A DNA stretch of 64,000 nucleotides, from NCBI RefSeq assembly GCF_029360805.1, contig NZ_JARKNC010000001.1, positions 310,001 to 374,000 of the forward strand. The letters are read 5' to 3'. Below the pieces are notes generated by a model. That model was not told the DNA's origin and did no database searches. It was given only the letters and a program-made list of their open reading frames with translations. This DNA is from Daejeonella sp. JGW-45 (GTDB lineage Bacteria; Bacteroidota; Bacteroidia; Sphingobacteriales; Sphingobacteriaceae). A program made the position numbers and the translations under genes. Shown one piece after another: positions 32,454 to 48,944 of this stretch; position 1 is the first letter of the stretch; every line of letters starts with the position of its first letter.

Positions 32454-32484
32454 ATTTATTTCTTTGTTTTTTTACTAAATACTG

Positions 32485-32492: not shown

Positions 32493-32603
32493 GTTGGGTA
32501 TACAAGGAGGAAATTACTCCTTTTATTTGACAAGCAAATAACATTTAAACATGTTCAAACCTTTATCTTCGATTCTTCGTATTTAATAAAGAAGAGTTGC
32601 ATT

Positions 32604-33704
32604 ATGCGCGGACATTCATTCTCTCAGTTTATTCCGAATGAGCTTCCAAAAGGCGGTTTTGAAGAGCTATTAAAGTTATTTTTTGAGCTTCTGAATTATA
32701 CTGCCGGGGATGCCAATGAGGCAATTGCCTGGATGAATGAGCTCGACAAACAATACAAGCTCACATCGGACGAGTATGGGATGGGTGATTTCATAGACGA
32801 CCTGAAGAAAAAGGGCTATCTCGGAGATGATGACCAAAACCCCGGCGGATTTAAGATCACTTCCAAGACAGAACAAACAATCAGGCAATCGGCACTTGAA
32901 GAGATCTTCGGGAAACTAAAGAAGTCCGGCAAGGGTAACCACAATTCCAACATCTCCGGCCTGGGCGAGGAAAAGAATGCTGACCGCAGGGAATATCAGT
33001 TTGGCGACAGCCTCGACCAGATAGACATGACCGCCTCGATTCACAATGCTCAGATCAATCACGGGATCGGCGATTTTTCCATGACCGAACGGGATCTTGA
33101 AGTAGAAGAAAAGGATTATAAAACCATTACTTCCACGGTGCTGATGATCGATATCTCTCACTCCATGATCCTTTATGGCGAAGACCGGATAACTCCCGCG
33201 AAAAAGGTAGCGATGGCCCTTGCAGAACTGATCAGGACCAAATATCCTAAAGACACACTTGACATTGTGGTCTTTGGAAATGACGCATGGCCCATCACAT
33301 TAAAAGAATTACCTTACCTGCAGGTCGGACCTTATCATACTAACACCTACGCCGGCCTCGAATTAGCCGTTGATCTGTTGCGCAGGAGAAAGACACATAA
33401 CAAGCAGATCTTTATGATCACAGACGGCAAACCAACCTGTTTAAAAGAGGGCACTAAATACTATAAAAATAGTATTGGCCTGGACCGGAAGGTGGTGAAC
33501 AAGACATTAAACATGGCCGCACAGTGTAAAAGGCTTGGCATCCCAATCACTACCTTTATGATAGCCCGCGATCCCTATCTGCAGCAGTTCGTAAGACAAT
33601 TTACTGAAACCAACGGCGGCAAGGCATTTTACAGCTCACTGCAGGGGTTGGGAGAATATATTTTTGAAGATTACATTAAAAACAGAAGAAGGACAGTCAG
33701 ATAA
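32604..33704 (+). CDS. VWA-domain protein paired with a MoxR/ChlI-type ATPase
   Basis: 366 residues. The C-terminal half is a von Willebrand A domain with an intact metal site: Asp183-Ile-Ser185-His-Ser187, a downstream Thr in NTYAGLEL and Asp in ITDGKP. The N-terminal half is helical, charged, and links to the VWA domain through a conserved DQIDMTASIHNA segment. It is the chelatase-D/CoxE-like partner of the next gene, with which it shares a TAATG overlap. Such AAA+/VWA pairs insert metals or remodel protein targets; the target here is unknown. Confidence 0.85.
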   Translation: MRGHSFSQFIPNELPKGGFEELLKLFFELLNYTAGDANEAIAWMNELDKQYKLTSDEYGMGDFIDDLKKKGYLGDDDQNPGGFKITSKTEQTIRQSALEEIFGKLKKSGKGNHNSNISGLGEEKNADRREYQFGDSLDQIDMTASIHNAQINHGIGDFSMTERDLEVEEKDYKTITSTVLMIDISHSMILYGEDRITPAKKVAMALAELIRTKYPKDTLDIVVFGNDAWPITLKELPYLQVGPYHTNTYAGLELAVDLLRRRKTHNKQIFMITDGKPTCLKEGTKYYKNSIGLDRKVVNKTLNMAAQCKRLGIPITTFMIARDPYLQQFVRQFTETNGGKAFYSSLQGLGEYIFEDYIKNRRRTVR

Positions 33705-35215
33705 TGGATATACTGAATATAAAGACACTTAAAGACCTGAAAGCCTCAGGTTATAACTCCCGTTCAGTTAAGGAAGAGCTGCGTGAAAACCTCATCAGGC
33801 AATTGAAAGATAAGAAAGCCGTGATGGAAGGTATCATAGGATATGAAGATACTGTCATTCCTGACCTGCAAACTGCGATTCTTTCGCGGCACAATATCCT
33901 ATTGCTGGGTCTTCGCGGACAAGCAAAAACCCGGATCGCCAGGTTAATGATCAATCTCCTGGATGAATATGTGCCTTACATTGAGGGATCGGAACTGTTC
34001 GAAGATCCGATGAACCCAATTTCCTGGTTCGGACATAACATAATAGAAACCCGGGGCGATTCTACGCCTATAGCCTGGCTGCACCGCTCAGACAGGTATA
34101 CGGAAAAACTAGCTACACCCGATGTTACCGTGGCTGATCTTATTGGAGACGTCGATCCCATTAAAGCAGCAACCCTCAAGCTGACTTATTCAGATGAACG
34201 GGTCATACACTTTGGCCTGATACCCCGTGCGCATCGCGGGATCTTTGTAATCAATGAATTACCCGATCTGCAGGCAAGGATACAGGTTGCCCTGTTCAAT
34301 ATCCTACAGGAAAAGGACATACAGATCAGGGGCTTCAAGCTTCGCCTGCCCTTAGACATTCAATTTGTATTTACTGCGAACCCCGAAGACTACACCAACC
34401 GCGGTGCCATAGTAACCCCATTAAAAGACCGGATAGAAAGCCAGATCCTTACGCATTATCCTAAAACTGTGGATATATCAAGGAAAATAACCCAGCAGGA
34501 AGCCAGGCTTGCGATAAGTCAGCGTTCAAGCGTTGAAGCAGACGGCTTGGTCAAAAACCTCGTTGAACAGATTGCATTCGAAGCAAGAGAATCAGAATAC
34601 GTTGACAAGAAATCAGGGGTATCCGCCCGCTTAACAATATCTGCATTCGAAAACCTGGTCAGCAATGCTGAACGCCGGATGCTGCTTAATGATGAGCATC
34701 AAACCTTTGTAAGGATCTCGGATTTTCTGGGCGTTATCCCCGCAATCACAGGGAAGATCGAACTGGTATATGAGGGCGAGCTGGAGGGGCCTACCAAGGT
34801 CGCTAACATCTTGCTTGGAAAGGCGATTAAGACCTTAATGACAACATATTTCCCTGATCCCGAAAAATTAAAGAAATCGAAAGCTACCAACCCATATTCT
34901 GAAATAATTAACTGGTTTGGTTCGGGAAATACTGTGGACCTGGTTGATGACCTTTCGTTTCAGCAATACAAAGAAGCCCTCCTTTCAGTTCCAGGCTTGA
35001 AGGACGTAACAAAGACATTTCACCCACGTCTGACAGAAAACCAGCAACTGCTCCTGATGGAATTCCTGCTTCACGGACTGGCAGAGTTTTCTCTTGTCAA
35101 CAAATCATTCCTAGATAAGGGGTATGCATTTGCTGATATGTTCAACAGCCTGTTCAGTCCTGATCTTGGTGAGGATGAAGACGAGGATTATAACGAAGAC
35201 AGAGGGCGGTATTGA
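33704..35215 (+). CDS. Mg-chelatase-subunit-I-like AAA+ ATPase
   Basis: 503 residues of the ChlI/MoxR AAA+ clade. Walker A is GLRGQAKT (69-76). The Walker B region reads GIFVINELPDL, with Asn185 where Asp is usual and Glu186 kept. Sensor and arginine-finger motifs follow (FTANPEDYTNRG, LKDRIESQILTHYP), and a helical C-terminal domain ends in an acidic tail. Translation is coupled to the VWA gene (TAATG). No chlorophyll, cobalamin or methanol-dehydrogenase genes are nearby, so it is a general MoxR-type chaperone rather than a true Mg chelatase. Confidence 0.87.
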   Translation: MDILNIKTLKDLKASGYNSRSVKEELRENLIRQLKDKKAVMEGIIGYEDTVIPDLQTAILSRHNILLLGLRGQAKTRIARLMINLLDEYVPYIEGSELFEDPMNPISWFGHNIIETRGDSTPIAWLHRSDRYTEKLATPDVTVADLIGDVDPIKAATLKLTYSDERVIHFGLIPRAHRGIFVINELPDLQARIQVALFNILQEKDIQIRGFKLRLPLDIQFVFTANPEDYTNRGAIVTPLKDRIESQILTHYPKTVDISRKITQQEARLAISQRSSVEADGLVKNLVEQIAFEARESEYVDKKSGVSARLTISAFENLVSNAERRMLLNDEHQTFVRISDFLGVIPAITGKIELVYEGELEGPTKVANILLGKAIKTLMTTYFPDPEKLKKSKATNPYSEIINWFGSGNTVDLVDDLSFQQYKEALLSVPGLKDVTKTFHPRLTENQQLLLMEFLLHGLAEFSLVNKSFLDKGYAFADMFNSLFSPDLGEDEDEDYNEDRGRY

Positions 35216-35220
35216 AAATA

Positions 35221-35370
35221 GTGATCAGTAATCGGTAATCAGTAATCAGTAATCAGTAATCAGTAATCAGTGCCAACGTACCTAACGGCTAAGACGGTTC
35301 TAATACTGATAACTGGGCGCAGCCACTGATTACTGATAACTGGGCGCAGCCACTGATTACTGATAACCTG
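35221..35370. repeat. GTAATCA heptad element with GTGCC core
   Basis: Seven words of GTGATCA/GTAATCG/GTAATCA type (35221-35269), then a core that starts GTGCCAACGTACCTAACG. Two tandem 27-bp units (TACTGAT-AACTGGG-CGCAGCC-ACTGAT) follow, ending in inverted heptads TGATTAC/TGATAAC. The core start is identical to that of the element at 45543-45652 for 18 bp. It is noncoding and fills the spacer after the ATPase gene. Confidence 0.8.
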
Positions 35371-35402
35371 ACCACTTTCTTTGATAACAACTAATATAAA
35401 AA

Positions 35403-36668
35403 ATGAGTAATCGCATCTTTGGATTAATAGTCATCACTGTCCTGCTGGTCATTATTGACATATATATCTATCGGGCCATCCGTTCAGTAAGTTCAAAATG
35501 GAACGATAAAAAACACCTGAACTTCAAATACATCTGGTGGGGCTATTCTGTACTCCTTATTACAGGGGTATTTATCAGCATTTTCTTCAATATTAAGTTC
35601 ATGCTGCGAACTGTCATACTGGTGATGTTCTTCATCACATTTATGTCGAAAATATTTATCCTTCCCTTTCTTCTGGTCGACGATGCACGACGAGGTCTCG
35701 TATGGATTAAAAGGAGACTGTTCAACAAGAAACGTAGCAATCCCGTCAAAAACACCCGCGCAACAGAGAGTATTCCCCGCTCAGAATTCCTCATAAAAGC
35801 CGGAACACTTGTCGCAGCCATACCATTTGCATCATTTACTTATGGCATTTTATCCGGCGCTTATGATTATCGCATAAAACGTAAAACACTCTACCTCCCT
35901 AACCTCCCTTCAGCATTTGACGGGATGAAGCTGGGACAAATCTCGGATATACATTCCGGAAGCTTTTACGACCGTAAAGCTGTCATGGGTGGCGTTCAAA
36001 TGCTCCTCAATGAGAAACCAGACATGGTGTTTTTTACTGGTGACCTCGTAAACAATGTAGCCTCAGAAATGCGGGACTACCAGGACATTTTTTCAAAGGT
36101 CAGGGCGCCTTTAGGAGTTTTCTCTATACTCGGCAACCACGATTACGGCGACTATCATTTCGGGCCGGCTAACTCACCGGCGAAAGCCAGGAACTTAGCG
36201 GATGTAAAGTTAAGCCATAAGAACATGGGCTGGGATCTTCTTTTAAACGAAAACCGCAGGGTAAAAATCGGCAATGAAGAAATTGGCATTCTCGGTGTCG
36301 AGAACTGGGGCGCCGGTCGTTTCGCTAAATATGGTCGTATGGATGTTGCAACCAAAGATACTGACGATCTCCCGGTAAAGCTCCTTCTGTCTCATGACCC
36401 TTCCCATTGGCGAAGTGAAGTCTTATCCGGCTATCCGCAGATCGATGCGATGTTCAGTGGCCACACTCATGGAATGCAGTTTGGTATCATCACAGAAAAC
36501 TTCCAGTGGAGCCCCTCTCAATATGTTTACAAAGAATGGGCAGGTCATTACCAGGAAGGTGCACAGCAGTTATATGTAAATGTAGGATATGGCTTCCTGG
36601 GTTACCCGGGGCGCGTTGGAATATTGCCTGAAATTACGATATTTGAGTTACGCCGGACTCCAGCATAA
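35403..36668 (+). CDS. Membrane-anchored metallophosphoesterase
   Basis: 421 residues. Three N-terminal helices (about 5-25, 45-65, 70-95) are followed by a basic loop, a further hydrophobic segment and a calcineurin-like domain with SDIHSG, FFTGDLV, LGNHDYGDY, LSHDP and SGHTHGMQ motifs. This is the YkuE/YaeI-like arrangement, for which phosphodiester or lipid-linked substrates have been proposed. The catalytic domain would face the periplasm. The following UbiA-like gene starts 22 bp later. Confidence 0.9.
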   Translation: MSNRIFGLIVITVLLVIIDIYIYRAIRSVSSKWNDKKHLNFKYIWWGYSVLLITGVFISIFFNIKFMLRTVILVMFFITFMSKIFILPFLLVDDARRGLVWIKRRLFNKKRSNPVKNTRATESIPRSEFLIKAGTLVAAIPFASFTYGILSGAYDYRIKRKTLYLPNLPSAFDGMKLGQISDIHSGSFYDRKAVMGGVQMLLNEKPDMVFFTGDLVNNVASEMRDYQDIFSKVRAPLGVFSILGNHDYGDYHFGPANSPAKARNLADVKLSHKNMGWDLLLNENRRVKIGNEEIGILGVENWGAGRFAKYGRMDVATKDTDDLPVKLLLSHDPSHWRSEVLSGYPQIDAMFSGHTHGMQFGIITENFQWSPSQYVYKEWAGHYQEGAQQLYVNVGYGFLGYPGRVGILPEITIFELRRTPA

Positions 36669-36689
36669 GCAATTCCAGCGTTCCACACT

Positions 36690-37568
36690 ATGAACAAATA
36701 CCTTAGGCAAGCGCTTGATTGTTTGTTATTCAGCAATATTTTTATTGCATTATGCGCAGTAGCACAGGGTTTAGTGACGTATCAATTGCTTGGTACGGAA
36801 CCTGAAAAACATGTTTTGGGCCTGCTCTTCTGTTCTACCCTTGCCCTCTACAACTTTAGTATTCTTTTAGCCAGGCCAAATAAGCCGGAGAGATCGCCGT
36901 TCCGGAGAGTGAGATGGATTTTCTCGCATTACCGGTTAATGATCACCTTGACGATCATTTCAGTACTTTCCATACTACCGTTAGTATTTTTTCTGAACAC
37001 TTCTTCAAAGATCCTCTTAGTATCGCTGGCAATTGTATCAGTGGCTTATAGTCTTCCTATATTCAGCATTCATGATAAACATTTCGGCTTGCGGAACATT
37101 CCGGGTGTAAAACTGTTTCTGATCGCAGCGGTTTGGTCGTTAAGTTGTGTTCTTCTTCCGATACTCGAACTTGAGAATAGCATTGAGGCCTCTGTAACCC
37201 TAAGCGACAGCATCATTCTGATAGCTAAACGTTTCCTCTTTATAGCAGCGATCACCGTCCCTTTTGACATCAGGGACCTCTTTCAGGATAAAACCAGTGA
37301 ATTGAAAACAATACCCGTAATTCTAGGTGAAAAAAATGCCTTGCTGATATGTCAGGGCTTACTGGTGATATATGTGGTCCTGCTATTCCTTTTCACGAGA
37401 AGTATAGATGGTAATTTTATCGGCTTGATGCTCACCATCGTTTTATCCGGGTGGCTCATCTTTAAATCCAAATGGAAGAAGGATGAGTATTATTACTTTT
37501 TCTATCTCGATGGAACAATGATTGTTCAGTTTCTGATGCTGCTGCTTTGTAATCAACTGCCGCTATGA
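36690..37568 (+). CDS. UbiA-superfamily-like membrane protein
   Basis: 292 residues with about eight or nine transmembrane helices. It resembles UbiA prenyltransferases: an N-terminal NIFIALCAVAQG helix, a YSLPIFS stretch followed by LRNIPGVKLFLIAAVWS, and a second Asp-rich motif DIRDLFQDK. The first NDxxD motif is missing; the equivalent region reads LYNFSILLARPNKPERSP. It may have lost prenyltransferase activity or bind a different substrate. It overlaps the MOSC gene by ATGA. Confidence 0.7.
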   Translation: MNKYLRQALDCLLFSNIFIALCAVAQGLVTYQLLGTEPEKHVLGLLFCSTLALYNFSILLARPNKPERSPFRRVRWIFSHYRLMITLTIISVLSILPLVFFLNTSSKILLVSLAIVSVAYSLPIFSIHDKHFGLRNIPGVKLFLIAAVWSLSCVLLPILELENSIEASVTLSDSIILIAKRFLFIAAITVPFDIRDLFQDKTSELKTIPVILGEKNALLICQGLLVIYVVLLFLFTRSIDGNFIGLMLTIVLSGWLIFKSKWKKDEYYYFFYLDGTMIVQFLMLLLCNQLPL

Positions 37569-38224
37569 ATAACATTGATATCGTCTCACTAAATATTCTT
37601 GGGAAGCCCGAAATACTTGTGGCCGACCACCAATCGGTGAAAACAGCATATCGCAAGGTGCCGATCGAAGCCGATAACATCGAGTTGGGAATGACTTCAT
37701 TTGCTGGTGATATGGTGCAGGATAAAAAACATCACGGCGGGAATGACAAAGCAATTTGCTGCTATAATTCGGATCATTTTATTAAATGGAAAAATGAACT
37801 GGGTTTTGACCTGGGCCCTGCCGCCTTCGGCGAAAATCTTACGTTAAAGGGCGAATCCGCCTGCGAGCGCAATGTTTATATCGGCGACCGTTATCAGCTT
37901 GGAGAAGCTGTAGTGGAAATATCTGAGCCAAGGGGGCCATGCTTCGTGATCGGCATCCGGTATAACTATAAAAGATTCCCTGTACATCTTCAGCAAACTG
38001 GTCTTACAGGATATTATCTCAGGACAATAAAACCGGGGTTAGTTTGCAAAACTGACCAGCTCGTCCATCTCAGCTCTCATCCGGAGAAGATTTCAGTCAT
38101 GGATGTCAACCATGTTAGGTATCACGACCCGGAAAACAAGGAATGGATACAAAGACTTGTTAATCTGAAAGAGCTAAGCGCAGATTGGCATGAGATGTTC
38201 GAAAAGAAACTGGCTAAGTTGTAA
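37565..38224 (+). CDS. MOSC-domain protein (YiiM-like)
   Basis: 219 residues with a MOSC beta-barrel and a C-terminal helical part, as in YiiM-type molybdenum-cofactor proteins that reduce N-hydroxylated compounds. The pattern HHGGNDKAICCY, AFGENLTLKG and IGDRYQLGEAVVEIS is clear. The cofactor-binding Cys is expected in SEPRGPCFVIGIR. The start ATG overlaps the UbiA-like stop (ATGA). Its last codons, TTG TAA, form the first word of a heptad array. Confidence 0.87.
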   Translation: MNNIDIVSLNILGKPEILVADHQSVKTAYRKVPIEADNIELGMTSFAGDMVQDKKHHGGNDKAICCYNSDHFIKWKNELGFDLGPAAFGENLTLKGESACERNVYIGDRYQLGEAVVEISEPRGPCFVIGIRYNYKRFPVHLQQTGLTGYYLRTIKPGLVCKTDQLVHLSSHPEKISVMDVNHVRYHDPENKEWIQRLVNLKELSADWHEMFEKKLAKL

Positions 38225-38418
38225 GTTATACGTGATACGTTGTAAGTACCTGCTAACTGCCCAAGACGTAAAACGTATAACGTACAACGTACAACTCCTA
38301 TAAGCGCTGTGCTAACCGCCCAGACGTAAAACGTATAACTTATAACGTACAACTCTTATAAGCGCTCGGCTAACCGCCCAGACGTATAACGTATTACGTA
38401 CAACGTACAACTTATAAG
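38218..38418. repeat. Tandem 58-bp heptad element (GTTATAC family)
   Basis: The left array GTTGTAA-GTTATAC-GTGATAC-GTTGTAA begins inside the last codons of the MOSC gene. It is followed by a core (GTACCTGCTAACTGCCCAAGAC) and then three rounds of an inverted array (GTAAAAC-GTATAAC-GTACAAC). Rounds are separated by a 30-nt core ending CTAACCGCCCAGAC; GACGTA recurs at 38265, 38323 and 38381, a 58-bp period. Units differ by several bases. It is noncoding. Confidence 0.8.
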
Positions 38419-38458
38419 GTCCAACTCCCTTTGGTATTGTCTTTGCATACCCCTAAGC

Positions 38459-39022
38459 ATGAAATCAACGGGAATTCTATTCATCGCGCTCTTGGTGCTC
38501 GTTTCGTGTAAACCCAAGACAGGCGATACGGTCAATCAAAACTTAAGACAGCAAAATTTTGACCTTAAAAAAGAAAACGACAGTCTGCGGTCGGCTATCG
38601 AAAAAGCTGCTCGAACGTTCGAGGGTGACACCATCCAGAAGATGCCCGAAATATCCAACCCGGAGCCCCATCCTACGTTGGCGGGCCGGCATGACCTTAC
38701 CCTGCAATGGATAAGCTGGGAAAAGCCAGGTTCAGTTATTATTACGGAATCCCGCGATGGTTGGTATACAATTAAAGGAAGTCAGACAGGCGAAAAAGAC
38801 TCCTACCTCAGGGTTAATGGCCGGATACGACCAGTCAACCAACGCGAACTTGAGTTCGACGGGACGATTGAATATAATGCGCACCTCATCACAGCTGGTG
38901 AACCGTGCGTCCGAACAGGCAAACAGTTGTTTAAAGCGACAGGTACACGAAAATACTGGCGGCTTCAGAATATGCTTAGCTGCGACGGGTCAACGACTGA
39001 TTACGTAGATATATATTTTTAG
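38459..39022 (+). CDS. Hypothetical lipoprotein
   Basis: 187 residues. The signal peptide ends in LVLVSC, giving a lipoprotein. A short predicted coiled coil (about 25-55, NLRQQNFDLKKENDSLRSAIEKA) precedes a compact beta-rich domain with two conserved-looking Cys (GEPCVRTG and LSCDGS) that may form a disulfide. I recognise no family. It stands alone between two heptad elements and is convergent with the response regulator. A weak -7-like box (TGTCTTTG) is at 38438-38445. Confidence 0.65.
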   Translation: MKSTGILFIALLVLVSCKPKTGDTVNQNLRQQNFDLKKENDSLRSAIEKAARTFEGDTIQKMPEISNPEPHPTLAGRHDLTLQWISWEKPGSVIITESRDGWYTIKGSQTGEKDSYLRVNGRIRPVNQRELEFDGTIEYNAHLITAGEPCVRTGKQLFKATGTRKYWRLQNMLSCDGSTTDYVDIYF

Positions 39023-39118
39023 TGGTACGTTATAAGTTATACGTTATAAGTGCCTAAACGCTGGGTTATCCGCCCAGACGTATAACGTATAACTTACAAC
39101 GTACAACTTATAAAGTAC
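39022..39118. repeat. Heptad palindrome with 30-nt core in a convergent spacer
   Basis: Left GTGGTAC-GTTATAA-GTTATAC-GTTATAA (39022-39049), a 30-nt core GTGCCTAAACGC...CCGCCCAGAC (39050-39079) with an inner CTGGG/CCCAG stem, then right GTATAAC-GTATAAC-TTACAAC-GTACAAC-TTATAAA (39080-39114). The first base is the G of the lipoprotein stop codon. It fills the gap to the convergent response regulator and could act as a bidirectional terminator. Confidence 0.8.
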
Positions 39119-39121
39119 AGC

Positions 39122-39811
39122 TTACTCTACCAAAAATTTATACCCAACGCCTCGTACGGTCTGCATGAAGTGAGGCCTGTCCGGGTTGTTCTCTATTTTT
39201 TTACGGAGACGGACAATATGCATATCGAGCGTGCGGGTATTTACATCCGAATTATACCCCCAAACTACCATCATTAGCTCATCCCTGTTAATTACTGTAT
39301 TAGCGTTCTTCAAAAAGTAAAGAAGTATCCTGTTTTCAAGAATGGTCAGTTCAATTTTCTTGTCGTCACGCATTAAGGAGTGAGTATTCGGATGATGCTC
39401 CATATTACCAAACCTGTAAATTTCAGACTTCTCATTATTGATCACAAATTTCACTTTGTTATCAATCAAAGCAACTAAAACGTCCATATTGAAGGGTTTG
39501 GTCACGTAATCTGAAACCCCAAAGCTGTAGGCGTCAATCTTATCTATGTCCTGTGCCTTGGCAGTCATCATTACGATAATATTGTTAAACCCTAGTTTGC
39601 GCACATTCTGGCAAACCTCAGAGCCCTGTTTATTAGGCAGCATCCAATCAAGAAGAACTATATCAGGCTGTTCAGTCATGATCAGTTCCTCAGCCATCTC
39701 ACCATCCGAAGCTTCGACAACTTTATACCCTTCAGTCTGTAGACGGTGTACTACTAAAAAACGAAGATTTTCATCATCCTCAATAACGGCAATTTTAATT
39801 TCTTTTGACAT
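39122..39811 (-). CDS. OmpR-family response regulator
   Basis: 229 residues: receiver domain with acidic pocket EDDE (11-14), phospho-acceptor Asp55, Thr83 and Lys105, followed by an OmpR/PhoB winged helix (ELTILENRILLYFLKNANTVINRDELMMVVWG ... RTLDMHIVRLRKKIE, given in parts). It starts 2 nt after the histidine kinase stop, so the two are translated together. Third gene of an operon led by an S9 peptidase. Regulon unknown. Confidence 0.95.
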   Translation of the reverse strand: MSKEIKIAVIEDDENLRFLVVHRLQTEGYKVVEASDGEMAEELIMTEQPDIVLLDWMLPNKQGSEVCQNVRKLGFNNIIVMMTAKAQDIDKIDAYSFGVSDYVTKPFNMDVLVALIDNKVKFVINNEKSEIYRFGNMEHHPNTHSLMRDDKKIELTILENRILLYFLKNANTVINRDELMMVVWGYNSDVNTRTLDMHIVRLRKKIENNPDRPHFMQTVRGVGYKFLVE

Positions 39812-39813
39812 AT

Positions 39814-41487
39814 CTATGGTTCGTAAGGCAACTCAATTTTAAACTCTGACCCTTTTCCTTCAACACTCTGAACACTGATCGTTCCGTTCATAAAATTAAC
39901 CAGTTCTTTACAGAATGCCAAACCTAAACCAACACTGCCCTGCTGATTATATTGGTTTTCCACCCTGAAGAACTTTTTAAAAATATTCTCGATATCCTCC
40001 GCAGGAATACCAATTCCTTTATCTGCAAACTTCATGACCACATGCTTCTTGATCTTTTTAATAGATATCTTCAGAAATTTCTTCCCGGGGTTCGAATACT
40101 TATAGGCATTATCTATCAGGTTACGGAAAATACTGCTTAACAGAACCGGGTCGGTTTTAAAATATTCAATGCCCTCAATTTGACAACTAATATCGAATGC
40201 AGGATACTTGAGCTGATATGCATCGATCAGGTTCTGGCAAAAAACCTCCAAATGTATATTCTCCTCCTTAAGCCGGATCGCCTTATTCTCGATCTGTGTG
40301 AATGAAAGCAACTTGTTCATCAGGTCGTTAAGCTTATCGGCTTCCTCATCCAGGATCTTACCATAATGCAGTCGCTCGCGGTCCGACAAGGTTGTCGCAC
40401 TTCGTATATTATTACCTGCGATCTTTATAACACTCACCGGTGTTTTGAATTCATGAGTCAGGTTATTTACAAAGTCATACTGAAGTTTAAACATCTTACT
40501 GTTAATATTCAGGTTACGATAAATCAGGTACCCTATTAATACAAGGATACCGTAGGTGGCAAATATGATACCTGCAATAGGCAGAAAACGTCGATTAATC
40601 TCCCTCATCAAGTATCCCTTATCTGAACTGAAATAAAGTTTATAATCCGAAAAGGGGCCAGACAGAGGTAGGTCATTACTGATCAGTTCAGTGTCGTTCG
40701 CAAGGGACTCATAAACCAGCGGCTTGATACTGATATGCTCATACAATTCAGGGTTGGTATTCTTTATGACCAGCTTCAGAGGATCAAGATAAAACGTCAG
40801 CATATCCAGCTCATAAACAGGAGATTCAGGAAGATCCTTTGTCATTATCTCCTTATACATCTTTAGCTCTTCCCTTCTGGGGACATTCATGTACGTGATC
40901 CTGTTTGAAGTGATCGTATAGAAAATATTAAACCGGTCGTCGTCACTCAAGGCTTTCGTCGTGTCCGATGACTCAATAAAACGGGTAAACTTTATAGCCA
41001 TCTTGTTGAATTCGTCTCCCGTTTTTAAGGAGAAGAATGTGTTTGGCCGGTCGTTCCTAAAAAGAAGTATAGAGTCCTTAGGTATGTCCCTCCCAAACTG
41101 GTACACAGATTTGGGTCCCATTGAAAAGTTGTTCACCCTTACGCCGTCAGGAATATTGTGATTACTGATCCCGGCATCGTAGAAGACAATACGGTCGACA
41201 AACCTAAATCTCCTGAATATGGTATCCACATATTTTACCGCCTGACTCGAATCGAGGTAACCCTGGTAGAATGAGATTTCGGGAATCTTATTTTGGAAAA
41301 AGTTATTATAGGGCTTAACTGTTTCTTCCAGAACCTCGATTTTCTGGGAAACAAATTCATTCTCAACATATTTGGTGGTAAGATTATAAGCCAGGTAAAA
41401 GGCAACAGCCATGGAGGCTGTGATCAAAATCAGGAACGTTAGTATAAGAGAGAAGTTTTTTCGGTAGATCTGCTGATACTCCTTCAT
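39814..41487 (-). CDS. Two-transmembrane sensor histidine kinase
   Basis: 557 residues. Helices at about 13-34 and 302-323 enclose a large periplasmic sensor domain of ~265 residues that matches no fold I can name. No clear HAMP domain follows. The H-box has His345 (NNLTHEFKTPVS). The HATPase domain shows N-box NLIDNAYKYSNPG, G1 FADKGIGIP and G2 VGLGLAFCKELV. It lies 3 nt after the S9 peptidase and 2 nt before its response regulator. Confidence 0.94.
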   Translation of the reverse strand: MKEYQQIYRKNFSLILTFLILITASMAVAFYLAYNLTTKYVENEFVSQKIEVLEETVKPYNNFFQNKIPEISFYQGYLDSSQAVKYVDTIFRRFRFVDRIVFYDAGISNHNIPDGVRVNNFSMGPKSVYQFGRDIPKDSILLFRNDRPNTFFSLKTGDEFNKMAIKFTRFIESSDTTKALSDDDRFNIFYTITSNRITYMNVPRREELKMYKEIMTKDLPESPVYELDMLTFYLDPLKLVIKNTNPELYEHISIKPLVYESLANDTELISNDLPLSGPFSDYKLYFSSDKGYLMREINRRFLPIAGIIFATYGILVLIGYLIYRNLNINSKMFKLQYDFVNNLTHEFKTPVSVIKIAGNNIRSATTLSDRERLHYGKILDEEADKLNDLMNKLLSFTQIENKAIRLKEENIHLEVFCQNLIDAYQLKYPAFDISCQIEGIEYFKTDPVLLSSIFRNLIDNAYKYSNPGKKFLKISIKKIKKHVVMKFADKGIGIPAEDIENIFKKFFRVENQYNQQGSVGLGLAFCKELVNFMNGTISVQSVEGKGSEFKIELPYEP

Positions 41488-41490
41488 TTA

Positions 41491-43377
41491 TTACTCCATT
41501 CTTAGATTTTTTTCAAGGAATTTCTCCAGTTCCCTGTAAAACTCGAGCTTATTTTCCGGCTTTTTGAAAAAGTGTCCCTCCCCCTCTTTTAGTATATACG
41601 TGACGGGCACCTCTCTTTTTTTCAGTTCCTTTACGAACTGGTTCGTTTCGTTCATATTTACCCGCGGATCTCTTGAACCCTGGGCAATCAGTACTGGTGA
41701 CCGGATCTTATCTGTGTGGAATACCGGGGAAACGGCACGGAAATAATCTGCATCGGCTTCCGGATTACCGACAGTTTCGTAAAACATCTGTAAATATGGC
41801 CGGTAATATGGCGGAATATCCTTGAGGTAGGTAAATAAATTAGTTAGGCCCGAATAAGACGCACCACATTTATAAAGGTCGGGTTGAAAGCACAAGCCAT
41901 GCAATGCCGAGTATCCGCCAAAACTGGATCCATAAATACCGATCCGGGTGGAATCAGCTATTTTTTCGGAAATAAGCCAGCGAACGCCGTCAGTAATATC
42001 GTTCTGCATTTTACCCCCCCATTCTTTAAACCCCGCTATCCAGAATTCCTTACCATAACCCTTCGAGCCCCGGAAGTTAACCTGAAAAACTGCATAACCC
42101 CTGTTGGCTAAAAACTGTACTTCCGAATTATAGCCCCAGCTGTTTCTGGAGTCCGGCCCGCCATGAGGCATTACAACGAGAGGCAAATTTGTGCCTTTTT
42201 TCCCAACAGGCAAAGTCAGGTATCCGTCAATTGTTAACCCATCCCTTGTCTTGTAAGAAATAGGTTTCATTGCAGCCATATTGTTAGCATCAATCGAGGG
42301 ATTAACATCACTGAGTTTTACCAGCTTATTACCCTTTTCTGTATACAAATAAAATGAACCTGGATCCTTGTCCGTATAAGTCTGGATAATAAACTTGCTT
42401 TCTGATGCATCAGAACTGCTGACTTTTATCTGTGTATTGGGAAGCAGGGCCTCCAGGCGGCTATACATGGCTTTCACCGAATCATCCAGATAGTATCTTT
42501 CCTTTTTCCATGTTTCATAGCCAGCGTAAATCATCTTATCCTTATTCGCTGAAAAAACAGCTTCAGACACATCTACCTCGGGATTACTATAGATAATGCG
42601 ATGTTCCTTCCCGGTAACACAATCCAATTCTACCAGCGCCATTTTATCCCGGTTTTTATTCGACAACGCATAAATACATCGGTTGTCTTTACTAAAGCCA
42701 ACAGGCGAAATGCTTGCTTTGAAGTTATTTGTTAACACCGGCTTAAACGCTTCTTTTTCGGAATTCCGATAAAGAAGCGTTTCATTGACCCCGTCGCTCG
42801 CTATAGCCATTCTAAGCTTGCCTTCGGTATCGGAGTACCATTGAGTGATATTACCGGGATTCTTTACCAGCAATGATAATTTTCCGGTTTGAATATTTAG
42901 CCGGTAAGCGTCAAATACGGTCGAGTCCCGCTGATTTAACGCCACAAGAACGTTATTGTCTTTAACCGGCTGGGAGGTTATCAATCGGATACGGGTTTTA
43001 GCAAATGACAGGAGCTCCCTTTTATTTGAGCCATCGCTTCTTACCGCAAATAAGCCCGGATCGGCTTCTGCTGTTCCATTCTTCAAATAAAGGATCTCGT
43101 GATTATTGATCCACAAATGATAAGCGATACTGCGGTTAGAGTCACAGGTAAGCTGCGTCGTATTTTTCCCATCCCATGTTTCCACGTAAATATGGATACG
43201 GTTATTGTCAGGCTTCAAATAGGAAATATAATTCCCATCAGGAGAAACATGAAATGACGTCTTAAAGGCCGCCTTAAAAAAGTTCTCAACAGGGATCTTA
43301 TCTGAGCTCTTCTCCCGGGTACAGGATATACTGACAAGAATTATAAAAAGAAGAAAATAGTTTTTCAAATCGTGCAT
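41491..43377 (-). CDS. S9-family serine peptidase (prolyl oligopeptidase type), lipoprotein
   Basis: About 628 residues from ATG 43377, which opens a lipoprotein-like signal (MHDLKNYFLLFIILVSISC); 21 extra upstream codons are not plausible. A WD40-like beta-propeller (about 30-370) precedes the alpha/beta hydrolase domain. The catalytic Ser is in GSSFGGYS, Asp in GSRDPRVNM and His in EGEGHFF. It resembles acylaminoacyl-peptidase/S9C enzymes and would act on peptides in the periplasm or at the surface. It is the first gene of an operon with a two-component system. Confidence 0.92.
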   Translation of the reverse strand: MHDLKNYFLLFIILVSISCTREKSSDKIPVENFFKAAFKTSFHVSPDGNYISYLKPDNNRIHIYVETWDGKNTTQLTCDSNRSIAYHLWINNHEILYLKNGTAEADPGLFAVRSDGSNKRELLSFAKTRIRLITSQPVKDNNVLVALNQRDSTVFDAYRLNIQTGKLSLLVKNPGNITQWYSDTEGKLRMAIASDGVNETLLYRNSEKEAFKPVLTNNFKASISPVGFSKDNRCIYALSNKNRDKMALVELDCVTGKEHRIIYSNPEVDVSEAVFSANKDKMIYAGYETWKKERYYLDDSVKAMYSRLEALLPNTQIKVSSSDASESKFIIQTYTDKDPGSFYLYTEKGNKLVKLSDVNPSIDANNMAAMKPISYKTRDGLTIDGYLTLPVGKKGTNLPLVVMPHGGPDSRNSWGYNSEVQFLANRGYAVFQVNFRGSKGYGKEFWIAGFKEWGGKMQNDITDGVRWLISEKIADSTRIGIYGSSFGGYSALHGLCFQPDLYKCGASYSGLTNLFTYLKDIPPYYRPYLQMFYETVGNPEADADYFRAVSPVFHTDKIRSPVLIAQGSRDPRVNMNETNQFVKELKKREVPVTYILKEGEGHFFKKPENKLEFYRELEKFLEKNLRME

Positions 43378-43740
43378 TTCCTGATTTACCCTAATCTCTA
43401 AACAAAAATCTACAATTCGGCAGCATTGTAAAAAATGCAACTGAAATATTACTGTTTTCTAAAACCCTATGGAAAATCCCGGATTCAACTTTTCAAGTTA
43501 CCAAAAGATTTATAAACCCAATTAAGAGGCAGCGTAACATTTAAACTACAGGGTACCAATATGACCGTAATTGGTAAAATGCCCGACGTACATATTATTA
43601 ATTAATCATTATCGTTATATTTAGGTTGCATCACAACAGCGTAAGCAAAACATATAACTATCATTATTTTGGCAAACCTGCGGAGAATGGTCACCCGGCC
43701 CAGGGCGGGCAGTGTCATGATCATTAATGAAAGATAACAG
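43378..43740. other. Divergent promoter region between S9 peptidase and TPR gene
   Basis: 363 bp without a credible gene and no heptad array. A near -7 match for the rightward TPR gene, TATATTTA, is at 43616-43623. A perfect palindrome TCATTAATGA at 43721-43730 lies 10 bp before the TPR ATG. I found no exact TAnnTTTG box for the leftward operon. Confidence 0.4.
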
Positions 43741-45546
43741 ATGAATAGAATCATAGTTCTGCTTTTAGTACTACTGGCTTGGACGCCGGTTCATGCACAG
43801 CTAAGCTCCGACGAGGCATTGGCCGTACAATACTTTCAGACTGGTGAGTTCGAAAAAGCGGCCGTCATCTATGAAAAACTTTTCAATCGCACAAAGAACG
43901 CGGGGCATTATGACCCTTACTTTATTTGCCTCTTAAAAACGAAACAATATGATGAGGCAGAAGCATTGGCAAAAAAGCTGCTTAAATCAAATCCGGGAAA
44001 CTATACATATGCTGTTGATATAGGCCGGGTGTTCCAGGAAAGGGGAGAACAGGAAAAATCGACAGAATGGTTTAATAAGCTTATCCGTGATATGCCCGCC
44101 AACGAATTTGCTATAAAAGATCTTGCAATAACCTTTTACAGGGCCGAGGGATATGATTTTTCGATAAAAGCCCTGCTTAACGGCCGGAAGATACTGAACG
44201 ATGAAAATGCATTTTCATACGATCTTTTAAGTCTTTACCGCTATCGCAAAGATAAGCCGATGCTCGTTCAGGAATACCTGTCACTTTTAGAAAGAAATCC
44301 TGAGGTTCTGCGCCAGGCTCAAAATGTTTTAGCAAACATCCTGGAAGATAAGTCAGATTACGACATGCTGAAAACAGCGTTGCTGAGACGCCTTCAGAAA
44401 GACGCTCAGAATATCGCTTATACCGAATTTCTAACCTGGCAGTATATCCAGCAAAAGGAATTTGATATGGCCTTGAGACAAACTCTTGCTTTAGACCGGC
44501 GTTTAAAGGAAGACGGCAGCCGTGTTTTTGAACTCTCGCGCTTGCTGTTATCTAACCATGCTTACGACCAGGTTGTGGAGTCTCTAAATTACCTGATCAC
44601 GAAAGGCAGCGATGGGAAATATTATATCCCGGCCAAAATCGATCTCCTTAATACGAAGTCTAAGCAATTAACATCTGATAAATTCAGTCGTCCTGAGCTT
44701 GCAGCGCTCGAAAGTGACTATATTTCTCTACTGCAGGAATTCGGCCGCAGCTCAGGAACTTCTTTTGCTATACTTCAGCTTGCTAACCTTCAGGCCTTTT
44801 ATCTTCAAAAACCCCAGGATGCTGCTGAAAATCTCTCAGAAATGATCGAGTTACCCGGCATTCCTCCACTTATATTGGCGCAGGCGAAGCTTGAGCTCGG
44901 CGATATTTATATACTGACGGGAGAAGTATGGGAAGCGGCCCTTCTATACGGACAGGTCGAAAAGCAGTTCAGTAATGACACCTATGGTCAGGAAGCTAAA
45001 TACAAGAGTGCGAAACTCTCCTACTTTCAGGGTGATTATGCTTGGTCGAAAGCCCAGTTAGATGTCCTAAAAAGCTCCACTTCGCAATTGATAGCAAATG
45101 ATGCATTGAACCTGAGCTTGCTGATTTCAGACAATCTCCAAAATGAAACAGACACAGCTGCTCTCAAAAAATATTCTTATGCAGACCTTTTGATCTTTAA
45201 AAACCAGCCTGACAGGGCATTGATACTTTTAGACAGTCTGAATATTCTCTATCCCGGCAATTCGCTTGCAGATGATATCCTGATGGCTAAATCTAAAGTC
45301 TACCTGAAAAAAAATGAAATTGACAAAGCGGTAACCCAGCTCTACGAAATCGTGGAAAAACACAGCTCCGAGCTTTGGGGTGATGACGCCATTTTTGTGC
45401 TCGCCGACCTGTATGAAAATAAGCTCAGCCAACCAGCTAAGGCTCTTGAATTATATCAAAAGATAATTACTGATTTTCCGGGGAGCCTGTATGTAATCGA
45501 AGCAAGGAAGAGGTTTAGGCTTCTTAGGGGCGATAAACTAGGGTAA
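43741..45546 (+). CDS. Exported TPR protein
   Basis: 601 residues. Signal peptide MNRIIVLLLVLLAWTPVHA, cleaved before QLSSDEALA. The rest is helical with tetratricopeptide repeats at the N-terminus (AVQYFQTGEFEKAAVIYEKLF, EAEALAKKLLKSNPGN) and the C-terminus (AWSKAQLDVLK, AVTQLYEIVEKHSSELWGDDAIFVLADLYE, given as separate stretches). It is probably a periplasmic scaffold, perhaps of envelope complexes. No specific family is recognised. A heptad array begins at its stop codon. Confidence 0.82.
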   Translation: MNRIIVLLLVLLAWTPVHAQLSSDEALAVQYFQTGEFEKAAVIYEKLFNRTKNAGHYDPYFICLLKTKQYDEAEALAKKLLKSNPGNYTYAVDIGRVFQERGEQEKSTEWFNKLIRDMPANEFAIKDLAITFYRAEGYDFSIKALLNGRKILNDENAFSYDLLSLYRYRKDKPMLVQEYLSLLERNPEVLRQAQNVLANILEDKSDYDMLKTALLRRLQKDAQNIAYTEFLTWQYIQQKEFDMALRQTLALDRRLKEDGSRVFELSRLLLSNHAYDQVVESLNYLITKGSDGKYYIPAKIDLLNTKSKQLTSDKFSRPELAALESDYISLLQEFGRSSGTSFAILQLANLQAFYLQKPQDAAENLSEMIELPGIPPLILAQAKLELGDIYILTGEVWEAALLYGQVEKQFSNDTYGQEAKYKSAKLSYFQGDYAWSKAQLDVLKSSTSQLIANDALNLSLLISDNLQNETDTAALKKYSYADLLIFKNQPDRALILLDSLNILYPGNSLADDILMAKSKVYLKKNEIDKAVTQLYEIVEKHSSELWGDDAIFVLADLYENKLSQPAKALELYQKIITDFPGSLYVIEARKRFRLLRGDKLG

Positions 45547-45652
45547 TCTGTAAACAGTAATCAGTGCCAACGTACCTAACGATCAAGAAAGCTTCTAAAT
45601 CTGATTACTTGGCGCGACCTCCGATTACTGATCACTGATTACTATTTCTTAC
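45543..45652. repeat. Heptad element with GTGCCAA/TTGGCGC core
   Basis: GTAATCT-GTAAACA-GTAATCA (45543-45563) overlaps the TPR stop codon. A core of about 52 bp begins GTGCCAACGTACCTAACG and ends TTGGCGC, and inverted heptads CGATTAC-TGATCAC-TGATTAC close it. Core ends GTGCCAA and TTGGCGC are themselves inverted (6 of 7). The core is shared with 35270 onward. It is noncoding. Confidence 0.8.
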
Positions 45653-45661
45653 CTTCACGCC

Positions 45662-45979
45662 ATGATTTTATATAATGTAACCATTATTATCGACGAAAGC
45701 ATTCATGAACGGTGGCTTAACTGGATGCAAAATGTCCATATCGGCCAGGTGATGAATACTGGGTGTTTTGCATCAAACAGGATGCTTAAAGTCCTCGACT
45801 CTCCTAACGAAGGCATTACTTATTGCGTACAATACGTTTCGGATTCAATTGAAAAGTACAATGAGTACAAGCATCAATACTCCGCAGCGCTTCAGGCTGA
45901 TTTCCCGGAAGAATTTTCCAATAAATTTGTTTCTTTCCGTACCCTTATGGAATTTATTGATGCCGATGAATTTTATTGA
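45662..45979 (+). CDS. DUF4286 family protein
   Basis: 105 residues of the small alpha/beta DUF4286 family, common in Bacteroidota (MILYNVTIIIDESIHERWLNWM, SNKFVSFRTLMEF). It has a ferredoxin-like ABM pattern without catalytic residues I can name, no signal and no membrane helix. It overlaps the rfbC-like gene by 14-20 bp. Upstream TACCTTCA, a weak -7 match, ends 4 nt before the ATG. Function unknown. Confidence 0.8.
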   Translation: MILYNVTIIIDESIHERWLNWMQNVHIGQVMNTGCFASNRMLKVLDSPNEGITYCVQYVSDSIEKYNEYKHQYSAALQADFPEEFSNKFVSFRTLMEFIDADEFY

Positions 45980-46514
45980 AACTAAAATAAAAGGCCTTTT
46001 TATTATAGACCCTAAGGTCTGGCGCGATGATCGAGGCTATTTCTATGAAAGCTATAACCAAAATGCGTTTGAGCGGGCGGGTATCGTGACCGACTTTGTC
46101 CAGGACAACCAGTCACTTTCTCAAAGGGGAACCTTGAGGGGTCTTCACGCACAGAGAGGCGCGAGCGCGCAGGGGAAACTTGTACGGGTCGTAAAAGGCA
46201 GGGTGATAGATGTGGCGGTAGATATCCGGCAAAGCTCTCCCACTTACGGTGAGCATATTGCCATTGAATTAAGTGAAGCTAACCATAGGATGTTTTGGGT
46301 ACCGCCCGGATTTTTGCATGGCTTTGTAACCCTCGATGACGACACCATATTTACTTATAAGGTAACAAAGCTCTATGATAAGCCTTCGGAAATAGGTATT
46401 ATATGGAACGATCCGGATCTTAATATCAATTGGGGCATCGATCCCTCGGAAGTCATTCTTTCCGAAAAGGACAAAACACTTCCTAAGTTTAAAGATTTTG
46501 TTAGTCCTTTTTAA
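45966..46514 (+). CDS. rfbC: dTDP-4-dehydrorhamnose 3,5-epimerase (RmlC family)
   Basis: 182 residues from ATG 45966 (MNFIETKIKG); ATG 45960 two codons earlier is equally possible, while longer extensions run through DUF4286. RmlC epimerises dTDP-4-keto-6-deoxyglucose in dTDP-L-rhamnose synthesis. The catalytic base His61 is in LRGLHAQRG, with Lys71 in KLVRVVKG and the likely acid Tyr131 in FTYK. PPGFLHGF (113-120) is typical. The other rml genes are not in the window, so a different deoxysugar is possible. Confidence 0.9.
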   Translation: MNFIETKIKGLFIIDPKVWRDDRGYFYESYNQNAFERAGIVTDFVQDNQSLSQRGTLRGLHAQRGASAQGKLVRVVKGRVIDVAVDIRQSSPTYGEHIAIELSEANHRMFWVPPGFLHGFVTLDDDTIFTYKVTKLYDKPSEIGIIWNDPDLNINWGIDPSEVILSEKDKTLPKFKDFVSPF

Positions 46515-46628
46515 GTGGAGAGTTGAAAACTGAAAGTTGAAAGCGGGCATCCGGTAACCACGACTTAACAGGAATGGAGACACCGTCAACCTAAAACCCC
46601 AGCCAACTTTCAACTCTCAACTTTCAAC
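46515..46628. repeat. GTTGAAA heptad palindrome between convergent genes
   Basis: Left GTGGAGA-GTTGAAA-ACTGAAA-GTTGAAA (46515-46542); right inverted TTTCAAC-TCTCAAC-TTTCAAC (46608-46628). The core of about 65 bp has no obvious relation to the GTGCC cores. It begins directly after the rfbC stop and ends at the OmpA gene stop, so it can form a long stem in both convergent transcripts. Confidence 0.75.
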
Positions 46629-47468
46629 TTATTTAATCAGATTATACAATTCGTCAAGTTTCGGTGAAAGCACAATTTCAATCCTCCTGTTCCTGCTTCT
46701 TGCGTCTGGTGTTGATCCTTGCTCAATAGGCTGGTATTCTCCTTTACCCGTAGCAGTTATCCGGTTGTTCTCAATCTTCTCACCTTCGGTCAGAAAACGA
46801 ACCACGGAAGTAGCCCGCAGCACACTAAGATCCCAATTGTCCTTAATCTGACCCAGGTTAACAACACGCTGGTTATCAGTGTGGCCTTCCACAGAAATAT
46901 TGATCTCCGGTTGTGTCTTCAATACCTTTGCCAACTCCTGCAGGGCAAGTTTACCGCGATCATCAATAACTATACTACCGCTGCTGAAAAGTAATTTATC
47001 AGTGAGTGAGACGTACACCTTACCGTCTCTGATATCAACAGACAGGCCACTCTGCTGAAAACCTAGCAGGGCTTTCTGAAGCTTGTCCCGTAGCGCATTC
47101 GTAGCTTCATCCCTCTTACGTAAGATTTCTTCTACCTCTTTTAACCGGGCCTCCCGCTTCTGAAGATCGGCAGAAAGCCTGCTGATCTCTGACGAGCTGT
47201 TTGAGCGCAGTGAATTAAGATTCTCGTTAAGCCCTGTAACATTGCCTTCAAGACCGGCAATACGCGCGTGCAGAGATGATGTGTCTGACTTCAGGCTGGC
47301 TATCTCTTCTTCGAGGGAAACAATTCTTGCGCGCGCCGCTTCCCAACCAAGAGAAAGTGAATCACGTTGAGCCAGTAAAGCATTATGCTTTTTGGGGGAA
47401 AGAACGACGCATGATGAAAACGCGGAAACTACCAGAACGAACAGGACAGGGATGGGATTTTTTTTCAT
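46629..47468 (-). CDS. OmpA-family lipoprotein with coiled coil
   Basis: 279 residues. Signal peptide with lipobox (VSAFSSC). A long coiled coil (about 30-130) leads to a C-terminal OmpA peptidoglycan-binding domain (SVEGHTDNQRV, LSVLRATSVVRFL, ITATGKGEYQPI, RNRRIEIVL). It probably tethers the outer membrane to peptidoglycan. It starts 9 bp after the DUF2461 gene, so the two are likely co-transcribed. Confidence 0.92.
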   Translation of the reverse strand: MKKNPIPVLFVLVVSAFSSCVVLSPKKHNALLAQRDSLSLGWEAARARIVSLEEEIASLKSDTSSLHARIAGLEGNVTGLNENLNSLRSNSSSEISRLSADLQKREARLKEVEEILRKRDEATNALRDKLQKALLGFQQSGLSVDIRDGKVYVSLTDKLLFSSGSIVIDDRGKLALQELAKVLKTQPEINISVEGHTDNQRVVNLGQIKDNWDLSVLRATSVVRFLTEGEKIENNRITATGKGEYQPIEQGSTPDARSRNRRIEIVLSPKLDELYNLIK

Positions 47469-47477
47469 GTTAGCTGA

Positions 47478-48140
47478 TTATGATATTGCATTCCGTAGGA
47501 ATACCATAAATGGATGTAATTTTTCAAAACCTTCAAGCACCTTTTTTGCTGCATTGGTGCTCTTAAGCTCCTCAGAAGCCAGCACGTGCGTAAAAGTAAA
47601 GCTCTTTAACTTGAGATATTCTATGTCCGGATGATCGGCAGAGTAGCCCTTGGGCGTCGTTTTTAACTTACACTCCTGATCGGGCTCACCAAAGTAGCTT
47701 TTAAACGAAGTTGTCGTGACTATGCCCCTGAAATCCCTGCCGCTGTAATCGATTTCCTGCCGTATTGATTTTAACATATCAGGCTCAGGCATCCAGCAGC
47801 CGCCAGCAAGAAAACTCTCTTCGGGGTGTATGTGTAAATAATATCCCGGACCGTTAAAGTTTTTTCCCTGTTGAGAAATCCCCGCGCCGAAATTATTTTT
47901 ATAAGGAGCTTTATTCGGGCTGAACCTCACATCGCGGTATATCCGCATAACACAGGTCTTAGGGTCAAGATCAGCAGAAATGGTTTTATCTATTTTCGAT
48001 AAGCCTTTAACCAATTCACCCACAAATTCAAGAACATTCGCACGGGCTTCATCGTGCCTTCCTTTATTCTCATGAAACCACTCCCGGTTATTGTTCTTTG
48101 CTAAATCTCTCAGAAAATCAAATGTGCCGGAAGCGATCAT
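47478..48140 (-). CDS. DUF2461 domain protein
   Basis: 220 residues of the DUF2461/TIGR02453 family. Marks are FLRDLAKNNNREWFHENK at the N-terminus, MRIYRDVRFSPNKAPYKNNFGA, and GYYLHIHPEESFLAGGCWMPEP in the middle. No signal or membrane segment. The family is widespread in bacteria and fungi without an established role. It lies upstream of the OmpA lipoprotein in one operon, with a heptad array just upstream. Confidence 0.88.
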   Translation of the reverse strand: MIASGTFDFLRDLAKNNNREWFHENKGRHDEARANVLEFVGELVKGLSKIDKTISADLDPKTCVMRIYRDVRFSPNKAPYKNNFGAGISQQGKNFNGPGYYLHIHPEESFLAGGCWMPEPDMLKSIRQEIDYSGRDFRGIVTTTSFKSYFGEPDQECKLKTTPKGYSADHPDIEYLKLKSFTFTHVLASEELKSTNAAKKVLEGFEKLHPFMVFLRNAIS

Positions 48141-48141
48141 T

Positions 48142-48251
48142 GGGATTAGGTATTAGGCGTTAGGTATTAGGCATTAGGTATTAGGTATTAGGCGTTAGGT
48201 ACGGTTGAGAGGCACTGTCAACCGTCAACCGTCAACCCGATAGCTATCGGG
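48142..48251. repeat. GGTATTA heptad array with GTCAACC array and palindrome
   Basis: Eight words GGGATTA-GGTATTA-GGCGTTA-GGTATTA-GGCATTA-GGTATTA-GGTATTA-GGCGTTA (48142-48197). A short linker follows, then three GTCAACC words (48217-48237) and the perfect palindrome CCCGATAGCTATCGGG (48236-48251). The two arrays use different words and are not inverted copies. It is noncoding and just upstream of DUF2461. Confidence 0.8.
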
Positions 48252-48258
48252 TGTCCGC

Positions 48259-48534
48259 TCAGTTCAGATTTATTTTGCTGTTCTTCATGTGCACAACAAC
48301 GTTTTTACGCCTGTACTTTTTGTACCAGATGAAACCAACGGCAGCAATGGCAAGATACGGAGCCGCAAGCAAATATAAGATACCGTCATTGAGCCCGTTA
48401 CCTTCAGTGTTGCCGTTTTGAGTTGAATTATCCGCATTTAAGGTACACATGGCACATTGAGCTGAAACTTCAGTTGTGATTCCACCTGCGAAAAGAAACA
48501 TGAAAAGCAATAGGAATATCTTGATGGTTTTCAT
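48259..48534 (-). CDS. Small exported membrane protein with CAMC motif
   Basis: 91 residues from ATG 48534. Signal peptide MKTIKIFLLLFMFLFAGGITTEVSA, then QCAMCTLNADNSTQNGN, a single helix (ILYLLAAPYLAIAAVGFIWY) and a basic tail. CxxC directly after the signal suggests thiol or metal chemistry; it lacks the His of a c-type heme site. It lies at the far end of the cytochrome oxidase locus, so an assembly role is conceivable. A longer upstream frame to 48672 lacks a sensible N-terminus. Confidence 0.7.
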   Translation of the reverse strand: MKTIKIFLLLFMFLFAGGITTEVSAQCAMCTLNADNSTQNGNTEGNGLNDGILYLLAAPYLAIAAVGFIWYKKYRRKNVVVHMKNSKINLN

Positions 48535-48538
48535 GACA

Positions 48539-48931: not shown

Positions 48932-48944
48932 CTGCCACTGATTA

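Follow-up and report, generated by a model that had tools for sequence, protein, structure and literature searches.

Heptad palindromes that keep their place at gene junctions while both arms change sequence in Bacteroidota

Tandem repeats of seven nucleotides have been described before as TAACTGA heptamers found in Beggiatoaceae and Cyanobacteria and in a small number of Bacteroidetes (MacGregor 2015, PMC4679880) and as GGGAATC heptamers in Xanthomonas, which have conserved gene neighbours and occasionally form inverted pairs (Rehm 2015, PMC4692102). Repetitive extragenic palindromic (REP) families, among them the GTAG and CGTC repeats, are also known (PMC3733652), as is the ability of template switching to create and maintain hairpins (PMC8794818). 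Here we describe heptad palindromes in a 64,000-nucleotide stretch of DNA (the window; contig C1, positions 310001-374000) from a Daejeonella-like genome of the Sphingobacteriaceae (G000; 4.1 Mb in 10 contigs), whose nearest named atpA records are Daejeonella metagenome-assembled genomes, with Pedobacter and Mucilaginibacter more distant. The elements are built as (heptad)n, a core, and (reverse-complement heptad)n, and some carry one of two dispersed cores, core A (CTAAACGCTGTGCTATCCGCCCAGACG) or core B (GTGCNNACGTACCTAACG...). Their place between genes is conserved, and the two arms switch heptads together.

Like the long simple sequence repeats (LSSR) and the cyanobacterial short tandemly repeated repetitive (STRR) sequences, these elements consist of over-represented seven-nucleotide units that are intergenic, lie near start and stop codons, mix variant heptads, and often occupy corresponding gene junctions in related species, where they vary in length and sequence. 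LSSR and STRR are described as direct arrays in which inverted pairs are exceptional. In the present elements two inverted arms around a core are a common form, some ten vocabularies are in use, and the arms co-switch. Like REP sequences and bacterial interspersed mosaic elements, they are dispersed palindromes of small size in the intergenic DNA downstream of genes, with tandem clustering and a convergent bias; they differ in having arms of tandem heptads, variable in sequence and length, and in lacking linkage to a REP-associated tyrosine transposase (RAYT). Unlike the arms of GTAG REPs, theirs vary by locus and species, and the aligned cores have no terminal GTAG tag. CGTC REPs have a stem of 8 to 9 bp and a loop of 4 to 5 nt, whereas core A, read from one side, gives CGTCTGGGCGG with, by inspection, no 8-bp stem after it; the CGT in this reading belongs to the heptad register. 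Miniature inverted-repeat transposable elements (MITEs) are likewise dispersed and noncoding, with inverted arms and element-free gaps in relatives, but here the arms are not conserved and no parental transposase was found among the Y1 and reverse transcriptase families searched. As in template-switch quasipalindromes (PMC7202029, PMC8794818), the arms are homogenised together and the hairpin is maintained, but in combination with 7-nt tandem expansion and over whole arms at junctions fixed across genera. In the literature searched, which did not cover subscription journals and preprints, heptad palindromes fixed in place with both arms changing were not described. Heptamer repeats are already known, and the palindromic, co-switching form appears to be new.

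We examined 854 kb of G000 (454 kb plus 400 kb), together with parts of its sister genome G042 (∼75% DNA identity), parts of other genus members, and 80 named Bacteroidota loci around atpA. Period-7 arrays numbered 61 in the 454 kb and 25 in the 400 kb of G000, and periods 5, 6, and 8 to 13 gave 0 to 5 each. Only 9 of the 86 period-7 arrays were mostly coding; ∼90% were intergenic, versus an intergenic share of the sequence of 12%. Arrays can span a gap from stop codon to the following start codon. By gap type, they were present in 15 of 69 convergent, 27 of 285 co-directional, and 5 of 89 divergent gaps (p=0.003). A first-pass annotation of the window had listed arrays and cores at several positions, and we found them there; their extent goes far beyond those coordinates, with about ten vocabularies coexisting in G000, including GTTATAC, AGTAATC, GAGATAT, AAGGAAC, AACTGAA/AGTTGAA, AATGGGA, AGCTATC, AGAACCA, and ATTAGGT. 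Where a gap contained two arrays, the arms were inverted and their vocabularies matched, apart from some mosaic gaps with differing arms. The match of a left arm to the reverse complement of its own right arm was 0.45, compared to 0.25 ± 0.036 for the right arms of other elements (0 of 10,000 permutations).

The same organisation recurred outside the genus. The atp loci of named relatives (738,913 bases) revealed 120 period-7 arrays, versus at most 16 for periods 4 to 6, 8 to 13, and 15. When named loci and genus members were taken together, arrays filled the atpA-atpG gap in 37/82 species and the atpF-atpH gap in 35/83, and array-bearing atp junctions were present in Pedobacter, Mucilaginibacter, Sphingobacterium, Solitalea, and Hymenobacter. 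Most left arrays had their first nucleotide no more than 10 nt from the stop codon, and most right arrays ended no more than 14 nt from the start codon. Different species used different heptads at the same junction, with the arms of each element matching: at atpA-atpG the own-arm match was 15.4 compared to 6.8 ± 0.40 with the arms of other species (∼21 SD of the permuted mean), and at atpF-atpH it was 12.0 compared to 6.5 ± 0.46 (∼12 SD of the permuted mean). Position-oriented heptads shared a loose grammar, AG[TA][TA]N[TC]N (2.85 bits versus 1.83 ± 0.03 when columns were permuted), and the 5' arm was G-rich, with G exceeding C in 93 of 97 arms and C exceeding G in none. Stop codons were rejected as the cause of this grammar (0.65 observed versus 0.70 in permuted heptads).

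Within the genus, all five members compared carried a heptad palindrome at atpA-atpG, and the heptads differed in both arms (those of G098 and G109 were alike). Alignment of G000 with G042 revealed a homologous inner core flanked by arms that had both changed, GTTATAC to GTTGAAA/GTGGAAA, with the leading GTT largely kept. This change is an in-place replacement in an orthologous copy and not a new insertion. The modular palindromic element proposed at first pass is supported as to dispersal, modularity, and replaced arms (atpA-atpG in G000 and G042); the suggested link to a REP-associated transposase failed. The elements of the window are as follows.

35216-35402, unstranded: intergenic element consisting of a GTAATCA array on the left (35217-35271), core B (GTGCCAACGTACCTAACG...; 35270-35303), and inverted arrays on the right (35304-35367; 27-bp unit x2.4).
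45547-45651, unstranded: core B element with a short array on the left (45551-45568), its core at 45566-45612, and an inverted array on the right (45613-45651).
38213-38424, unstranded: core A element in which a single GTTATAC array on the left precedes a unit of core A plus right inverted array, repeated three times in tandem with a 58-bp period.
39021-39119, unstranded: core A (GTGCCTAAACGCTGGGTTATCCGCCCAGACG) element flanked by inverted GTTATAA/GTTATAC arrays, occupying a convergent gap from stop to stop.
4511-4555, plus strand: half element; left GTTATAA/GTTGTAC array and a GTGCCGGGCGG remnant, without a right arm.
6622-6803, unstranded: atpA-atpG intercistronic palindrome; its arrays occupy 6623-6668 and 6767-6801, and its inner core has a homologue in G042.
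9005-9109, unstranded: atpF-atpH intercistronic heptad element; arrays 9029-9067 and 9077-9110, arms of different vocabulary (mosaic).
46514-46631, unstranded: GTTGAAA-heptad element; arms 46514-46543 and 46603-46631.
48141-48245, unstranded: mosaic element in which an ATTAGGT array (48142-48203) is followed by a GTCAACC array (48217-48238).
48945-48983, plus strand: lone GTTCTAC/GTTTTAC array without a partner arm.
1695-1744, minus strand: lone array of the CGATTACC type whose end lies 3 nt away from a stop codon.

The gap at 35216-35402 is 187 nt long in G000. Its counterpart in G042 (177 nt) contains the same core in a decayed related element, and in G098, G109, G086, G122, and G104 it is 26 to 35 nt long with no array, these gaps being too diverged to give exact element ends. 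Core B adjoins four vocabularies: GTAATCA, GTTGACA (L126), GTGGAAA (L127), and GTTATAC (C1:306727). This agrees with the first-pass view that elements with different heptads have a core in common, here ACGTACC beside all four. The core also recurs genome-wide, with GTGCCAACGTACCTAACG present exactly four times in 4.1 Mb and six times with up to two mismatches, versus once for a reversed control pattern. The pentamer GTGCC, which had been named as the shared core, is by itself weak evidence because the adjoining AGT is part of the heptad register. The element at 4512 does have the left arm with GTGCCGGGCGG but is half an element. The resemblance drawn between 35281-35295 and the cores at 38244, 38305, 38363, and 39062 joined two separate families, B and A; sequence models of each miss the loci of the other, and we rejected a single family. 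The core A model gave 22 matches in G000, 17 in G042, 1 in G098, and 0 in 17 other genus genomes, and the core B model gave 11 in G000, 13 in G042, and 0 in other genus genomes. Because matches are confined to G000 and its sister, with one in G098, the cores form a young, dispersed, clade-limited family. Dispersed copies of near-full length were present in G000 and G042, and many arrays had no common core at all.

Between the two core A elements lies a 187-amino-acid open reading frame (window 38459-39022) that G042 also has and that G098, G109, and G086 lack; gene and elements were therefore gained or lost together.

We then considered enzymes that might mobilise the cores. In G000 the sole Y1 transposase (C1:396760-397101) lies more than 1.5 kb from any heptad array, and Y1 transposases are absent from core-rich G042, with up to 7 matches in core-poor or core-less relatives. 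The RAYT link, the check proposed at first pass, was rejected since Y1 is unlinked to the arrays and absent from G042. This single Y1 transposase gene of G000 (L024, ∼2760-3101) is flanked by its own REP-like palindromes, GGGCTGAAGCCC and TTCAGGCTTGA, which are unrelated to the heptads. Reverse transcriptases were present in G000, G042, and G098, which are also the genomes with core A, but the three proteins (DRT4/6, UG39, and group II-like) are unrelated, so a shared reverse transcriptase was rejected and the co-occurrence was treated as coincidence. The G000 enzyme (C9:402008-402574; L357) resembles the DRT4/DRT6 defence reverse transcriptases and has a HerA-like ATPase next to it; that of G042 is of the UG39 type. 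Among the Y1 transposase and reverse transcriptase families, the only ones searched, no parental enzyme fits the cores.

The subunit numbers of ATP synthase are textbook values, and we compared them with hairpins at gene junctions in ∼81 species, counting those with z below -3 among gaps of at least 30 nt. Shuffles preserved dinucleotides for c>b, a>c, b>delta, delta>alpha, and alpha>gamma and mononucleotides for beta>epsilon, L10>L12, and L12>rpoB. The rule that hairpins mark falls in subunit number was stated after b>delta, alpha>gamma, and delta>alpha were known; a>c, c>b, beta>epsilon, L10>L12, and L12>rpoB were predicted beforehand. Hairpins occurred at falls in 67/81 (c>b), 22/51 (b>delta), 50/63 (alpha>gamma), and 14/19 gaps (beta>epsilon) and at rises in 1/79 (a>c) and 5/62 (delta>alpha), counts that overstate the evidence because the species are related. 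The ribosomal test gave 0/30 for the rise L10>L12 and 24/29 for the fall L12>rpoB. Hairpins at beta>epsilon carried species-specific heptads, and those in atpA-atpG array gaps reached a z of about -7. The atpE-atpF hairpin of the window (9656-9694) is an ordinary conserved one of the GCACAAGCCTTATTTTA type; a hairpin is present at this junction in 67/81 species. The rplL-rpoB gap (L268-L297) contains a conserved terminator-like hairpin, TAGACTCCGG...CCGGGGTCTATTnnTGTTT, and rpoB apparently starts at TTG.

On balance we regard it as an even call that these are hypermutable REP-like hairpins, renewed by slippage and template switching and kept or tolerated as intercistronic step-down hairpins. 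Seven-nucleotide replication slippage would spread one heptad along an arm, and template switching at the hairpin (quasipalindrome correction) would copy it to the opposite arm; some copies would disperse within the genome. Because stop and start codons sit at the stem foot, a hairpin in an operon may reduce the translation of the downstream gene or the amount of its transcript, or couple that gene to the upstream ribosome, and hairpins would thereby be retained at junctions needing less of the next subunit. We propose such a function with less assurance than the renewal mechanism, and give neutral tolerance of the hairpins similar weight. More tentatively, the elements could be a Bacteroidota gene-junction device, conserved in position and fold and renewed wholesale in sequence, which would step the next cistron down (2:1 and 3:1 in ATP synthase), keep its stem perfect by slippage and template switching, and, given the AG[TA][TA]N[TC]N grammar, be read by a recognising factor.

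Several observations weigh against the proposal of renewed, step-down hairpins. At the falls c>b and L12>rpoB the hairpins are ordinary ones without heptads, and arrays occupy the rise delta>alpha in eight species. Gaps are shorter than 30 nt in 32/83 species at b>delta and 18/81 at alpha>gamma; since many species thus have no hairpin there, it is dispensable. No drop in codon adaptation was found at array junctions genome-wide (n=24, p=0.89). Consistent RNA-strand asymmetry was not seen, sense RNA being no stabler than antisense (results were negative or mixed), and an RNA-level function is for that reason unproven. Mirrored heptad order between arms was 11.6 versus 10.8 nt shuffled (p=0.013), so barely above shuffled that direct arm-to-arm copying is weakly shown. 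Part of the arrays in G000 are one-armed, a neutral process should not fix G-rich polarity, and species are non-independent samples.

Some of these data could instead fit neutral satellites, made and renewed by slippage and template switching and surviving where harmless, at gene 3' ends and in gaps before little-translated genes. We hold this as a tentative alternative. Arrays are depleted before divergent promoters and before the highly translated atpE, atpA, and rplL; the DNA-strand symmetry and the unshifted codon adaptation would follow, and the LSSR literature describes 7-nt slippage (PMC4679880, PMC4692102). The persistence of arrays at given junctions in different genera and even orders, their shared polarity and grammar, and the atpA-atpG hairpin z all argue otherwise. 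Nonautonomous mobile elements of the MITE or REP type, with a transposase that prefers gene ends and heptads as its binding sites, seem unlikely to us, even though near-full-length copies and cores are dispersed in G000 and G042, the 35216-35402 gap is array-free in other genus members, and fixed polarity and grammar are what binding sites would show. Among the families searched, no transposase is associated with the arrays, the reverse transcriptases of the core A genomes are unrelated, the atpA-atpG copy is orthologous in G000 and G042, and a plain MITE reading leaves unexplained why many genera have core-less heptad palindromes at shared gene junctions. It is very improbable that the elements are ordinary intrinsic terminators or attenuators: the hairpins are long and enriched in convergent gaps, but a terminator scan flagged none of the elements in 30000-49900, the arms are A+T-rich with no T-run, and arrays lie inside the atp operon.

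Bacteroidota largely do without Shine-Dalgarno signals. If the step-down hairpin proposal is correct, these elements would provide a testable model of how subunit ratios are set in operons of this phylum, and a widespread regulatory feature that alignment cannot see because place and fold alone are conserved. They would also show the two arms of a hairpin evolving in concert in nature, which bears on how long stems stay paired. Bacterial heptamer repeats have so far had no accepted function, and these junctions would be places to measure one.

Heptad arrays were present at rpsM-rpsK and rpmJ-rpsM in 5/30 and 7/30 family genomes, and a general rule for ribosomal operons was rejected. In some genera the rpsM-rpsK gap (L208, L214, L217, L225, L228, and L231) is 130 to 150 nt long and contains arms of the GAGATGTGAG type on either side of a semi-conserved GGTACCGGG centre; elsewhere it is 12 to 16 nt. 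At rpmJ-rpsM a candidate structured leader, GTAATNNNCCGCACAACGGTGGCCCGCCGTTCGG, is conserved in several Sphingobacteriaceae (L213, L228, L230, and L232), and its L213 and L228 copies had no Rfam match. Neither the window nor five rpsM loci had an Rfam match. Window positions 11789-11938 contain CGCAAAGGT-type 9-nt repeats as inverted arms ∼100 nt apart, a similar layout with a different period. Other short palindromes seem to land in heptad arrays: CCCGATAGCTATCGGG lies in or beside arrays at C1:52954 and C1:358236 (window ∼48236) of G000, in L128, and in the atpF-atpH gap of G098, and the G042 version of the 35216 gap contains CCTGCCTGCCGGCAGGCAGG.

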